The notes beneath the pieces are model-generated. The model did no database searches, was not told where the DNA came from, and was given only the letters and a program-made list of their open reading frames with translations. Below, piece by piece: positions 5,829 to 64,000 of a DNA stretch of 64,000 bases. Source of the stretch: Vineibacter terrae (GTDB lineage Bacteria; Pseudomonadota; Alphaproteobacteria; Reyranellales; Reyranellaceae); contig NZ_VDUZ01000021.1 in the NCBI RefSeq assembly GCF_008039615.1, positions 62,001 to 126,000 of the forward strand, in the 5' to 3' direction. Position numbers and translations under genes: made by a program. The stretch's first letter is position 1; the number at the start of each line of letters is the position of its first letter.

Positions 5829-7516
5829 AGACAGAAATCGCACGTCTGGTGCGCAGCAGCAGCGGTCCCTACCTGGGGACCGCTGCTGCCTTCAGCCTGG
5901 CCATCAACCTGCTCTATTTGGCCGGTCCACTCTACATGCTGCAGCTTTATGACCGCGTAGTGCCCAGCAGCAGCGAGATCACGCTGCTGATGCTGACGCT
6001 TGTCTTGCTGCTGGCCTATCTGGCGCTGGCCGGCCTCGATGCCGTGCGGGCACGCGTGCTTACGCGCGTAAGCGTACGCCTCGACCGGCAGATAGCCCCA
6101 AAGGTCATGACGGCGATCATCGACGGTCGAGCAGGCGCAGGCGGGGCGCGCAGCGAGCTTCTGCGCGACTTCGACAGCGTGCGCCAGTTCCTTGGCGGCG
6201 CGGGCATCCATGCCATTTTCGACCTGCCCTGGGCGCCGCTTTATATCGTCGTCATCTTCATGCTGCATTGGGCGCTTGGCGCCTTCGCGCTGGGCTGCGC
6301 CCTTCTGCTGATCCTGTTGGCGCTGGTCAATGAATGGCTGATACGCGCCCCGCTGGCCGACGCCAACATCGCGGCAGCGCGCAACTACAGCTTCACCGAG
6401 ATGAGCCTGCGCAATCGCGATGCCATCCGCGCCATGGACATGACGGAGGGTCTGCTGCGGCGCTGGGGTCAGGACCGCGATCGCACGCTGGAGCGTCAGG
6501 TCGTGGCCTCCGATCGCGCGGCGGCGATGCAGAGCGGCGTGAAGTTCTTGCGGCTCTCCATGCAGTCCGTGATCCTGGGGCTCGGCGCGTGGCTAGTCAT
6601 CGAGCGCAATGTGACTGGCGGCGCGATGTTCGCGGCGAGCCTGCTGCTTGGCCGTGCCCTGCAGCCGGTCGAGCAGATCGTCGGCACCTGGCGCACGCTG
6701 GTCTCCGTGCGTAGCGCATGGCGACGCCTGAGCGATCTCTTCGCGGCCCGTGCCGTCAGCGCCCCGACCGTGTCGCTGCCCCGGCCAAGCGGACATCTTG
6801 CCGTCGAGGAGCTGAGCTTCGCGGTGGCGGGCACCCCCAAGCCGCTGCTGCGTGGCATCTCGTTCGCGCTTCAACCGGGCGAGGTGCTGGGCGTTATCGG
6901 CCCGTCGGGCGCCGGCAAGTCCACCTTGGCACGCCATCTTGTCGGCGTGCTGGCGCCGAGCGCCGGCGCGGTGCGGCTCGACGGCGCCGACGTCAGCGCC
7001 TGGGCACGCGGCACGCTGGGGCAGCATGTCGGCTACCTGCCGCAAGATATCGAGCTGTTCGCCGACACGGTCGCCGCCAACATCAATCGCTTCAAGCCGG
7101 GTGATGACGACGCGATTGTCCGCGCCGCGCGCATGGCGGGCGTGCATGAGCTGGTCCTGCGCCTGCGGCAGGGCTACGACACCCAGGTGGGAGAAGGCGG
7201 CGCGGTGCTTTCCGGTGGTTATCGCCAACGCCTAGCGCTGGCGCGCGCCGTCTACGGCGATCCGAGCCTGGTCGTTCTCGACGAGCCGAGCTCCAACCTC
7301 GATGCCGAGGGTGACGCGGCGCTCAGCCAGTGCATTCGCGAGCTCCGGCAACAGGGCACGACCGTCGTCCTCGTCTCCCACCGCCTGAGCACGGTCGGCC
7401 TTGCCGACAAGCTGCTGGTGCTCAAGGACGGCAAGGTCGAGCTGTTCGGCCCGGGCGCCGAGATCCTCGCGCGGCTGGCCCGCGGCCCGCAGCTTCAGGC
7501 CGTGAGGTCGGCGTGA
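5825..7516 (+). CDS. Type I secretion ABC transporter, PrtD/LapB-like permease-ATPase
   Basis: This is a 563-residue half transporter. An N-terminal membrane domain with hydrophobic helices (about residues 17-320) is fused to a nucleotide-binding domain. Walker A is GPSGAGKST (about residue 359), the signature is LSGGYRQRL (about 462, with Tyr replacing the usual Gln), Walker B with D-loop is VVLDEPSSNLD and the H-loop is VSHR. The size and lack of a peptidase domain fit the PrtD family, which drives export of RTX proteins across the inner membrane. It overlaps the cargo gene upstream and the fusion-protein gene downstream by 4 bp each, so all three are probably translated together. Confidence 0.93.
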   Translation: MKTEIARLVRSSSGPYLGTAAAFSLAINLLYLAGPLYMLQLYDRVVPSSSEITLLMLTLVLLLAYLALAGLDAVRARVLTRVSVRLDRQIAPKVMTAIIDGRAGAGGARSELLRDFDSVRQFLGGAGIHAIFDLPWAPLYIVVIFMLHWALGAFALGCALLLILLALVNEWLIRAPLADANIAAARNYSFTEMSLRNRDAIRAMDMTEGLLRRWGQDRDRTLERQVVASDRAAAMQSGVKFLRLSMQSVILGLGAWLVIERNVTGGAMFAASLLLGRALQPVEQIVGTWRTLVSVRSAWRRLSDLFAARAVSAPTVSLPRPSGHLAVEELSFAVAGTPKPLLRGISFALQPGEVLGVIGPSGAGKSTLARHLVGVLAPSAGAVRLDGADVSAWARGTLGQHVGYLPQDIELFADTVAANINRFKPGDDDAIVRAARMAGVHELVLRLRQGYDTQVGEGGAVLSGGYRQRLALARAVYGDPSLVVLDEPSSNLDAEGDAALSQCIRELRQQGTTVVLVSHRLSTVGLADKLLVLKDGKVELFGPGAEILARLARGPQLQAVRSA

Positions 7517-47419: not shown

Positions 47420-49363
47420 ATGATCAATATTTCCCTGCCGGACGGCAGCGTCCGGTCTTTCGAGCGTCCCGTGACGGGTGCCGAGCTTGCCGCCGGCATC
47501 GGCGCCGGCCTGGCCAAGGCTGCCCTGGCGATCAAGGTGGATGGCGAGATGCGTGATCTGGCGCGTCCGATCGACAAGGACGCCAGGGTTGCCATCGTCA
47601 CGGCCAAGGATCCCGATGCGCTCGAGCTGCTGCGCCACGACGCGGCCCACGTGCTGGCGCAGGCCGTGCAGGAGCTCTATCCGGGCACGCAGATCACGTT
47701 CGGTCCGGCAACGGAAAGCGGCTTCTACTACGATTTCGCGCGTGCCGAGCCGTTCACGCCCGAGGATTTCGAGAAGATCGAGAAGCGGATGGCGGAGATC
47801 GTCGACCGCGACCTGCCGATCGAGCGCGAGGTCTGGGACCGGGCCAGGCTCAAGAAGCACTTCCTGGAGCACGGCGAGACGTTCAAGGCCGAATGGTCCG
47901 ACGAGCTGCCCGCCGGTGAAGAGATCACGGTGTACCGCCAGGGCACGTGGCTGGACATGTGCAAGGGCCCCCACCTGCCGTCGACAGGCAAGCTGGGCAA
48001 GGCCTTCAAGCTGATGCGGGTGTCGGGGGCCTATTGGCGCGGCGATGCCAGGAATGCGCAGCTCCAGCGCGTCTACGGCACGGCCTTTTTCGACCGCAAG
48101 CAGCTCGACGCCTACCTGACGCAGCTCGAGGAGGCTGAGCGGCGCGACCATCGCAAGATCGGCAAGGAGATGGGCCTGTTCCATCAGCAGGAAGAGGCCG
48201 CCGGCATGGTGTTCTGGCACCCCAAGGGCTGGACGCTGTGGCGTGTCCTCGAGGACTACCTGCGACGGCGCCTGGACGAGGCAGGCTATCTCGAGGTCAA
48301 GACGCCCCAGCTCGTCGACCGACGCCTGTGGGAGGCGTCCGGCCACTGGGCCAAGTTTCGCGAGAACATGTATCTCTCGGAGAACGAGGAAGGCCTGCGC
48401 GCGTTCATGGACAACCAGGCCCAGCGTATCTTCGCGCTGAAACCCATGAACTGCCCCTGCCACGTGCAGATCTTCAACCAGGGCCTCAAGAGCTACCGCG
48501 ACCTGCCGTTGCGGCTGGCCGAGTTCGGCTCGTGCCACCGCTTCGAGCCGTCCGGCGCCCTGCACGGCATCATGCGGGTGCGCAACTTCACGCAGGACGA
48601 CGCGCACATCTTCTGCACCGAGGACCAGATCAAGGACGAGACGATCCGGTTCTGCGAGCTGCTGCGCCGCGTCTACGGCGACATGGGCTTCCCTGACTTC
48701 TTCGTGAAGTTCTCCGACCGGCCGCCGGTCCGCGTCGGCAGCGACGACGTATGGGACCAAGCCGAGAACGCCTTGAAGGAAGCGTCGCTGGCTGCCGGCC
48801 TGCAGTACCAGATCAATCCCGGCGAAGGTGCGTTCTACGGACCCAAGCTGGAGTTCGTGCTGCGTGACGCCATCGGCCGGGACTGGCAGTGCGGCACGCT
48901 GCAGGTCGACTTCCAGGTGCCCGGCCTGCTCGGCGCGAACTACGTGGCCGAGGACAGCTCGCGCCGGACACCGGTGATGCTGCACCGCGCAATCTTCGGC
49001 TCGTTCGAACGCTTCATCGGCATCCTGATCGAGCATTATGTGGGACGGTTCCCGCTCTGGATGTCGCCGACGCAAGCGGTGGTATGCACGATCGTGAACG
49101 ATGCCGATGCCTATGCCGGCGAGGTCGCATCAGCCCTTGCGGCCGCAGGGCTGCGGGTCGAGACGGACCGGCGCAACGAGAAGATCAACTACAAGGTCCG
49201 CGAGCACTCGCTGGCCAAGACGCCGGCGCTGATCGCCGTGGGCAAGCGGGACGTCGAGAATCGCACGGTCGCGATCCGCCGCCTGGGCTCGGAAAAGCAG
49301 GAAACCCTTGCGCTGGACGAGGCTGTCCATAGATTGTTGGAGGAAGCGCGTCCGCCACGTTAG
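47420..49363 (+). CDS. thrS: Threonine--tRNA ligase
   Basis: The 647-residue class II synthetase starts [17 protein letters not shown] (TGS domain). An editing domain follows with the metal-binding [17 protein letters not shown], then CKGPHL and a catalytic core with [43 protein letters not shown] and [14 protein letters not shown]. The C-terminal anticodon domain begins at [10 protein letters not shown]. The frame is open upstream to 47237, but the conserved family start fits 47420. It is followed by infC after 100 bp, as in many proteobacteria. Confidence 0.97.
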
Positions 49364-60943: not shown

Positions 60944-62951
<2,008 letters not shown>

Positions 62952-63058
62952 GGCGTACGTCCCTCGTGATGCGATGAGGTCCGATTTGTCGCATGCCCGG
63001 CACACCGTCGCGACTCTTGCTTGAAAAAGCAGATTCATTGCCCTGAAGTTACTCAGTC

Positions 63059-63116
63059 ATGCATCAGAAACATGCATCTTGCAGCTAATGCATTGCTGCG
63101 ATGCAGCATGATGCAT
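63059..63116. promoter_or_regulatory. Cluster of ATGCAT motifs (possible operator array)
   Basis: Exact ATGCAT palindromes occur at 63059-63064, 63072-63077, 63088-63093 and 63111-63116, with a variant ATGCAG at 63101-63106. The spacing is 10-16 bp. It lies between the divergent SDR gene (62951) and a small-protein gene (63230). Such a cluster is far above chance in this GC-rich sequence and suggests binding sites of a regulator. Confidence 0.55.
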
Positions 63117-63229
63117 GGCATGTCAGGCTGACTGACCCATATTGTGATCATAGCTGGTAGCTCAACAATAGAAGAAGGCTCCCGGCGACCGGGAGGAGCG
63201 CTCTGACCTCGAGCTGTTGGAGGTTGGAT

Positions 63230-63445
63230 ATGCTCCGCGAAGACACACTCAGAACCATCCAGGCCGCAATCGCCCGAGGCGAGCCGGCCAGACCGACGCC
63301 CGACGCCGTCCGCGCGGTCGCGTCCGAGGCTCATCGCTTGCGCACCCTGACCGTGCGCCAGGCGTTCGCGGCCCTCGCTTCCCTTTTCCGTAGCCATGAC
63401 CTCGTCGTGCCGCCCGGCAAGATCGACGTCGTGCGCGGCCACTGA
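63230..63445 (+). CDS. Small protein of unknown function
   Basis: The 71-residue protein starts MLREDTLRTIQAAIARGEPA at ATG 63230, six bases after GGAGG. It is basic and mostly helical in appearance, with no membrane segment or known motif. A DUF1127 gene follows after 27 bp, and the pair may be an operon responding to stress or nutrient change, as DUF1127 genes often do. Confidence 0.65.
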   Translation: MLREDTLRTIQAAIARGEPARPTPDAVRAVASEAHRLRTLTVRQAFAALASLFRSHDLVVPPGKIDVVRGH

Positions 63446-63472: not shown

Positions 63473-63688
63473 ATGACCCTCGTCACCACTCTGCCCGATA
63501 CCGGCAAGAGAACGGCATCCCGGCGGCAGGCGCCGTCGCTGTCGCTGACCGACACCCTGCGCCTGTGGCGCCGGCGGGCGCGCGAGCGCGCCGAGCTGGC
63601 CCGCTTCACCGACCGTGAGCTGCACGACATCGGCATCGGCGCGTCGGACGCACTGCATGAGATCAACAAGCCGGTATGGCGAGCCTGA
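63473..63688 (+). CDS. DUF1127 domain protein
   Basis: The 71-residue protein carries a C-terminal DUF1127 motif: RRARERAELARFTDRELHDI followed by GIGASDALHEI. This short Arg-rich domain is common in alphaproteobacteria, and some members bind RNA and affect phosphate or nitrogen metabolism and stress responses. It follows AGGAG closely. Confidence 0.88.
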   Translation: MTLVTTLPDTGKRTASRRQAPSLSLTDTLRLWRRRARERAELARFTDRELHDIGIGASDALHEINKPVWRA

Positions 63689-63721: not shown

Positions 63722-64000
63722 ATTGCGTGTCGGCGATATCGAGAACCTTTTGAGACCGCGCCGGCACGCAATCCGCTCACGCCCGCGCTGATCGCCGTCC
63801 TGGCGGCGCTGTCGGCGTTCGCGCCCCTGTCGATCGACATGTACCTGCCGGCCATGTCGAGCGATTTCCGGGTCGCGCACGCCGACACGCAGCTCACCCT
63901 GACCTACCCCCACATCGCCGGCACGGCCTCATCGCTGCTGGGCGTGATCCAGTTCGGCACCGGCGCCGTGTTCGGCACCCTGGTCGGACACCTGCTCGAT
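63722..64000 (+). pseudogene. MFS drug-efflux transporter (Bcr/CflA type), internally deleted and truncated by window end
   Basis: The frame encodes the first transmembrane region of a Bcr/CflA transporter (ALIAVLAALSAFAPLSIDMY, then LPAM). About 15-20 residues later it switches to the sequence expected near helices 10-11 (YPHIAGTASSLLGVIQFGTG). Some 290 codons of the middle of the protein are missing at about 63900. No ATG, GTG or TTG start precedes it in frame after the stop at 63686-63688. Both facts indicate a non-functional remnant. The far end lies outside the window. Confidence 0.7.

Follow-up and report, generated by a model that had tools for sequence, protein, structure and literature searches.

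The divergent locus and its ATGCAT cluster

The window (the whole stretch of DNA analysed here, 64,000 nucleotides of the Vineibacter terrae contig NZ_VDUZ01000021.1, positions 62,001 to 126,000) carries near its 3' end a divergent locus. An SDR gene of the PRK06125 subfamily lies on the minus strand (62175-62951), and on the plus strand a small ORF of 71 aa (63230-63445) is followed by a gene for a 71-aa DUF1127 protein (63473-63688; PF06568, E 5.9e-11), so the flanking genes are those that the preliminary description had named. No Pfam or NCBIfam family was found for the small ORF, which gave matches in 4 of the 41 genomes searched (the window's own counted), all of the same genus. Downstream of the DUF1127 gene a Bcr/CflA-type MFS gene (63740-64000 onward; L005) appears internally deleted, where two related genomes (G003 and G001) have a long open frame. 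Genomes are denoted here by G-numbers, G000 being the genome of the window, and the loci compared by L-numbers.

Between the divergent genes, four exact ATGCAT palindromes were confirmed at 63059-63064, 63072-63077, 63088-63093 and 63111-63116 (numbered 1 to 4 below), and the variant noted alongside them was found to be ATGCAG at 63101-63106. The described spacing range of 10-16 bp is correct, but "regular" is only loosely apt since the steps from word to word are 13, 16, 13 and 10 bp. In a background sample of 859,624 bases of the window's genome, in which the contigs carrying phaR and one phasin gene (C18 and C91) were deliberately included, ATGCAT occurs 88 times, or about once per 9.8 kb, in good agreement with the earlier estimate of roughly one per 10 kb or more. 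The cluster count that had been suggested as a check revealed no second pair of ATGCAT words within 58 bp in this sample, and a Poisson estimate from the sampled density gives about 3e-4 four-copy windows expected genome-wide; the cluster is therefore real and not the product of chance. Genome-wide, ATGCATN{4,10}ATGCAT was found in four places, two of them belonging to the cluster at 63059-63116, the third within a 334-aa frame (L003) and the fourth (L004) 5' of a frame that by eye is resolvase-like. Over the whole window ATGCAT is rarer than in shuffled sequence (9 observed vs 18.95 expected), so that only its local clustering is unusual.

Conserved blocks, predicted promoter and leader

Orthologous loci were located by DUF1127 searches of 31 family genomes and by matching the 5' leader pattern GGGAGGRGCGCTCTRACC with at most 1 mismatch. 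The divergent locus was found in 7 of 75 family genomes: G000 to G003 (genus g1), G007 and G011 (g5) and G004 (g2). An SDR frame occupies the corresponding position in each of the other six loci, and the small ORF has matches in G001-G003 and syntenic counterparts in G004, G007 and G011. Among 385 genomes drawn from the class the leader pattern was present in two, G000 and G003 themselves.

Reading the alignment of the seven loci by eye, ATGCAT no. 1 was exact in four (ATGCA in six), no. 2 (63072) in two and no. 3 in three, with the ATGCAG variant kept in five; no. 4 (63111-63116, plus strand) was kept in one and is probably incidental. What is conserved is a unit of two different blocks and not a plain array of ATGCAT. 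Block A, CAGTCATGCANNNGAAAC (63054-63071, plus strand), contains ATGCAT no. 1, shows the T-N11-A spacing of LysR-type sites at 63060-63072, and is exact in G000, G002, G007 and G011, with one change in G001 and G003; it is absent from G004. The same four genomes have an exact block B, GCATTGSTGCGATGCAGCA, which in the other three varies around a core of TG-GCG-T-CA--A. The distance from A to B is constant at 44 bp in all six loci that have block A, and block B and an invariant C[CT]ATAT are 39 bp apart, or 40 in G004. The preliminary description had proposed an operator array between divergent genes, to be refuted if the cluster were absent from near relatives or widespread with no link to promoters. 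The regularity of ATGCAT is indeed mostly absent from relatives and the ATGCAT words are not equal operators, but the underlying blocks are present, conserved at fixed spacing and directly 5' of a conserved -10.

The predicted promoter (63115-63143, plus strand) has a weak -35, ATGGCA (63115-63120), a 17-bp spacer and a -10 of CATATT (63138-63143), with a start assumed at about 63150. Read by eye, the alignment shows C[CT]ATAT, like the TG within the -35, unchanged in 7/7 loci. A sigma-70 scan of the locus found no promoter site, the only terminator-like site at the locus is on the minus strand, and a search of the locus with Rfam gave 11 matches, all under the family cut-offs and mostly to miRNA models.

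The leader, GGGAGGRGCGCTCTRACC...TGGAGGTTRG..ATGC, is near-invariant (L124-L130) and occurs in 7 of 75 family genomes, in one place each, this locus. Within it a hairpin (63195-63236, plus strand), similar in fold in 7/7 loci, is predicted to mask the Shine-Dalgarno sequence and the start codon. Of its alignment cells 93.2% are paired, vs at most 48.5% when the structure is slid; ten of its 15 pairs are invariant, two vary one-sidedly, three depart only by unpaired cells and none changes two-sidedly. In its 141-nt context the hairpin is no more stable than shuffles. As control shuffles reach every measure and the folding is ordinary beside them, the hairpin is rejected for now as a proven RNA switch. 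Also rejected was the idea that the direct repeat CATGCATC-N5-CATGCATC defines a regulon: among the matches listed, G000 and G002 alone have the exact form, each at this locus, and forms with up to 3 mismatches are scattered.

Matches to the LsrB/VtlR box and the PhaR operator

The published LsrB box is GCAT-N3-TG-N3-T, and in the NfeR1 promoter TGCA-N6-GCAT forms a T-N11-A site at which point mutations abolish LsrB binding (available text of PMC10746234 and PMC8844928). Positions 63080-63102 of the plus strand match both elements exactly as a combined TGCA-N6-GCAT-N3-TG-N3-T, which contains ATGCAT no. 3 and has its T-N11-A at 63080-63092. TGCA-N6-GCAT is exact at 63080-63093; the full TGCA is found only in G000 of the seven loci, and the T-N11-A in six by reading of the alignment. 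GCAT-N3-TG-N3-T, exact at 63090-63102, is present in five of the seven, G001 departing from it at two positions and G004 lacking the LsrB box as well as block A. In the whole genome of the window the combined pattern occurs 4 times. A control Rhizobium genome has 10, two of which lie at most 60 bp 5' of ar14 (NfeR1 family) and ar15 (AbcR family), which are published LsrB targets (PMC10746234, PMC8844928, available text) and so make these sites a positive control for the pattern. Measured from the assumed start, the T-N11-A lies at about -70 to -58 and the GCAT element at about -60 to -48, beside the -72 to -60 given for NfeR1 and the -61 to -49 given for AbcR1 in the available published text.

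A candidate lsrB gene was located through its trxB neighbour. A LysR-type gene follows trxB in all four family genomes tested (G000, G002, G003 and G007), as in Rhizobiales, and the product in G000 has 49-50% overall identity (72-77% over the first 65 residues) to three rhizobial copies, scoring 322 bits vs 116 for the next LysR protein of the same genome. Two genomes that carry the DUF1127 locus yielded no LsrB orthologue: in G001, whose assembly is 87% complete, a 32% match was all that appeared, and in G011, 91% complete, nothing matched at 1e-30. G005 and G009 have LsrB but not the DUF1127 locus. LsrB has been called unique to Rhizobiales, where, as far as the available published text goes, it is always in an operon with trxB. 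Since NCBI taxonomy places Reyranellaceae within Hyphomicrobiales, its presence in this family widens that statement and does not break it. The four Reyranellaceae copies (L220-L223) have no cysteine, against four in the Rhizobium copy and one each in the two other rhizobial copies; thiol redox sensing by the Reyranellaceae protein is therefore unlikely, its effector domain lacking the cysteines expected of such a sensor.

The likeness to the S. meliloti NfeR1 (ar14) and AbcR1 promoters, as these are given in the available text, thus takes in TGCA-N6-GCAT, GCAT-N3-TG-N3-T, the T-N11-A, a near-equal distance to the start and a CTATAT-type -10. Unlike the S. meliloti LsrB promoters so described, the one in the window has a protein-coding target, the small-ORF/DUF1127 operon, and a box that overlaps a PhaR-type palindrome; S. 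meliloti NfeR1 is instead co-regulated by NtrC (PMC10746234, PMC8844928, available text). In Brucella, VtlR activates DUF1127 genes, and the window shares with that system both a VtlR/LsrB orthologue and a DUF1127 target, its sequence matching the VtlR box CAATGCAGCCATGCA at 12 of 15 positions (available part of PMC12595884); matches of 12/15 are not rare, with 12 and 17, by orientation, in 822,900 bases. The available part of PMC12595884 mentions no PhaR site for the VtlR-activated DUF1127 genes.

The PhaR-type palindrome, CATTGCTGCGATGCAGCATGA (63091-63111, core TGCGATGCA at 63097-63105), lies within block B and contains the ATGCAG variant. The operator consensus of S. meliloti PhaR (AniA) is WNWD2NYGCRNYGCRNH2WNW (available text of PMC12542648), to which the palindrome fits at 20 of 21 positions by eye, likewise standing near the -35; its target here is DUF1127, a word absent from the main text of that source. 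A matrix was built from the 16 S. meliloti sites of promoters marked 'Efficient' in the table of PMC12542648, leaving out four exoH sites and the mirror entry acyP; deriving it from S. meliloti avoids the circularity of using phasin boxes that resemble block B. By this matrix 63091-63111 ranks 6th of the 859,624 sampled positions, behind one site before a phaA-like gene, two before a phaB-like gene and two before phasin genes, and outside the deliberately included contigs C18 and C91 only one phasin site outscores it. Per 278 bp, such a match has a chance probability of about 6.5e-6 under a Markov model, which produced 3 hits over 118.8 million positions, and of 1.3e-4 when the intergenic composition is used. 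In each of the seven orthologous intergenic regions the best matrix site is block B (scores 13.0 to 24.0), and the core YGCRNYGCR with AT-rich arms is found in six, with one mismatch in G004.

The gene for PhaR (PF07879) is present in 4/4 genomes of the genus, and the phaA-like (acetyl-CoA acyltransferase, TIGR01930) and phaB-like (acetoacetyl-CoA reductase, TIGR01829) assignments are both over cut-off. Strong PhaR-type boxes resembling block B were found in 9 of the 11 phasin upstream regions of the genus, and no PhaR-type site in the other two (L009 and L019). Strong boxes also lie 5' of the phaA-like and phaB-like genes of the window's genome (L149, 13663, 15195 and 15226), and weaker matches elsewhere in the window at 48975 (score 16.0) and 49362 (score 14.9).

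The putative composite operator in other genomes and its interpretation

Genome contigs were scanned for a 19-bp core, GCATTGSTGCGATGCARCA, which includes the PhaR core, giving 49 stretches, among which the window's own genome may be absent. A home-made HMM placed a DUF1127 gene at most 900 bp away in six of these (L172, L185, L189, L193, L199 and L216), with support from Pfam for L185, L189, L199 and L216. Four more loci have short DUF1127-like proteins (L173, L175, L205 and L219), of which only that of L173 is a DUF1127 by Pfam, the others being assigned by similarity to it, and two (L203 and L217) precede ar14. In all 12 of these loci the gene lies on the same side of the directional motif. 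Matches linked to PHB were found at phasin genes (L186, L190, L200, L210 and L213, the last just below the Pfam cut-off) and at a thiolase gene (L171), with the gene on either side of the motif, as a palindrome allows. No family was found for the neighbour of L201. The remaining loci adjoin other or unassigned genes. This tally of contexts is partial, since the Pfam scan took in 23 complete neighbouring proteins from the 49 loci. In two Rhizobium-type genomes the ar14 (NfeR1) promoter (L203 at 6965-7151, L217; L263) was observed to resemble the window's DUF1127 operator closely.

The half-site ATGC 11 bp 5' of GCAT, which is outside the search pattern, was present in 12 of the 49 loci (p 1e-18 vs an expectation of 1/256, the loci not all being independent). 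It showed no association with the six HMM-called DUF1127 loci (2/6 vs 10/43, p 0.63); after the post hoc addition of the four DUF1127-like and two ar14 loci, several of them close relatives, it did (8/12 vs 4/37, p 3.7e-4). A second PhaR-like palindrome exactly 20 bp downstream of the composite site was found at L173, L175, L205, L219 and L215 (scores 27.4, 11.5, 19.4, 20.0 and 14.5), and none in the Reyranellaceae loci; the five comprise four Mesorhizobium/Aminobacter DUF1127-like promoters and one alphaproteobacterial MAG (L215).

The 31 family genomes gave 145 DUF1127 matches, of which 69 were scanned over 400 bp upstream, the orthologous loci L108, L115 and L120 included. The g1-type leader was found in 0 of these 69 upstream windows, and GCAT-N3-TG-N3-T in four (L061, L063 and the orthologous L108 and L115). 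PhaR-core matches at about -285 of eight DUF1127 genes of genus g3 were discarded, lying by eye inside a LysR-like frame.

The locus is probably an LsrB-activated, PhaR-gated promoter of the small-ORF/DUF1127 operon, a reading built on conservation, motif matches and the presence of both regulator genes. The LysR-type regulator orthologous to LsrB and VtlR would bind 63080-63102, and block A, with its T-N11-A about 20 bp centre to centre from the LsrB box, is perhaps the other part of a LysR tetramer footprint. The simplest account is that this promoter, whose -10 is good but whose -35 is poor, depends on LsrB as activator through a box shared in part with a PhaR operator. PhaR is a repressor that releases DNA on binding polyhydroxybutyrate. 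It may occupy the palindrome at 63091-63111 and, since this overlaps the LsrB box and lies just 5' of the -35, would act by competing with LsrB or by obstructing RNA polymerase. In this scheme the operon would be expressed when LsrB is active and a carbon store is present.

LsrB/VtlR control of DUF1127 genes is already reported in Brucella (available part of PMC12595884), so the putative PhaR input is the new part. That input is also more open to dispute than the LsrB one, since the palindrome might instead be taken for an LsrB half-site. In such an account LsrB acts alone: the ladder of ATGCA/TGCAT half-sites in block A and at 63080, 63090 and 63101, recurring every 7-13 bp, would be a single LysR-type tetramer footprint, with the palindrome as the activation half-site and its right half as a possible further contact. 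The NfeR1 precedent argues for LsrB, the same composite standing 5' of ar14 in Rhizobium and the S. meliloti NfeR1 promoter having, in the available text, a published LsrB site, as does the role of VtlR as an activator of DUF1127 genes (PMC12595884, available part). In G004, however, the palindrome (score 17.6) stands alone, with neither LsrB box nor block A, which argues for PhaR; the right arm of the palindrome is conserved though it is outside the published LsrB consensus; and LsrB does not explain the second palindrome 20 bp downstream in the four Mesorhizobium/Aminobacter loci and L215. We regard control by LsrB without PhaR as rather unlikely.

The converse, that PhaR acts alone, would have the LsrB match arise incidentally from the TGC-rich PhaR sequence and would leave block A to an unrelated regulator; it can point to the PhaR match as the strongest single statistic and the one best kept across the seven loci. 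It is nevertheless improbable, as the TGC half-site 5' of GCAT is not part of the palindrome and yet persists as T-N11-A in six of those loci, and ATGC recurs at the half-site place among the 49 stretches far beyond its 1/256 expectation. That the cluster is a functionless accident is suggested by the lineage-specific occurrence of ATGCAT nos. 2 and 4, but given the density of the word and the conservation of the blocks at fixed spacing we give this very little credence. Hardest to credit is an NsrR-type nitric oxide operator, with which the cluster shares the ATGCAT core, because an NsrR dyad pairs AANATGCATTT half-sites with ATGCAT starts 11 bp apart, a step seen nowhere in the cluster, and the genomic site that has this spacing (L004) sits before the resolvase-like frame.

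The preferred reading, joint control by LsrB and PhaR, may extend beyond this locus: we suggest, tentatively and at somewhat less than even confidence, that DUF1127 genes and the NfeR1 sRNA share an ancient switch, an overlapping LsrB-PhaR operator, in Hyphomicrobiales, Reyranellaceae included, and in some Rhodospirillales. Among open-licence PubMed Central papers, LsrB and PhaR searched as whole words gave no co-mention, and DUF1127 was co-mentioned with PHB or PhaR only in a Rhodovulum taxonomy paper. If the suggestion is true, the small DUF1127 proteins and the NfeR1 sRNA would respond to the polyhydroxybutyrate store in addition to LsrB, and DUF1127 would gain a role in carbon-storage physiology. 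Little is understood of the DUF1127 proteins, widespread though they are, and a second input that senses PHB would suggest when and why they are made.
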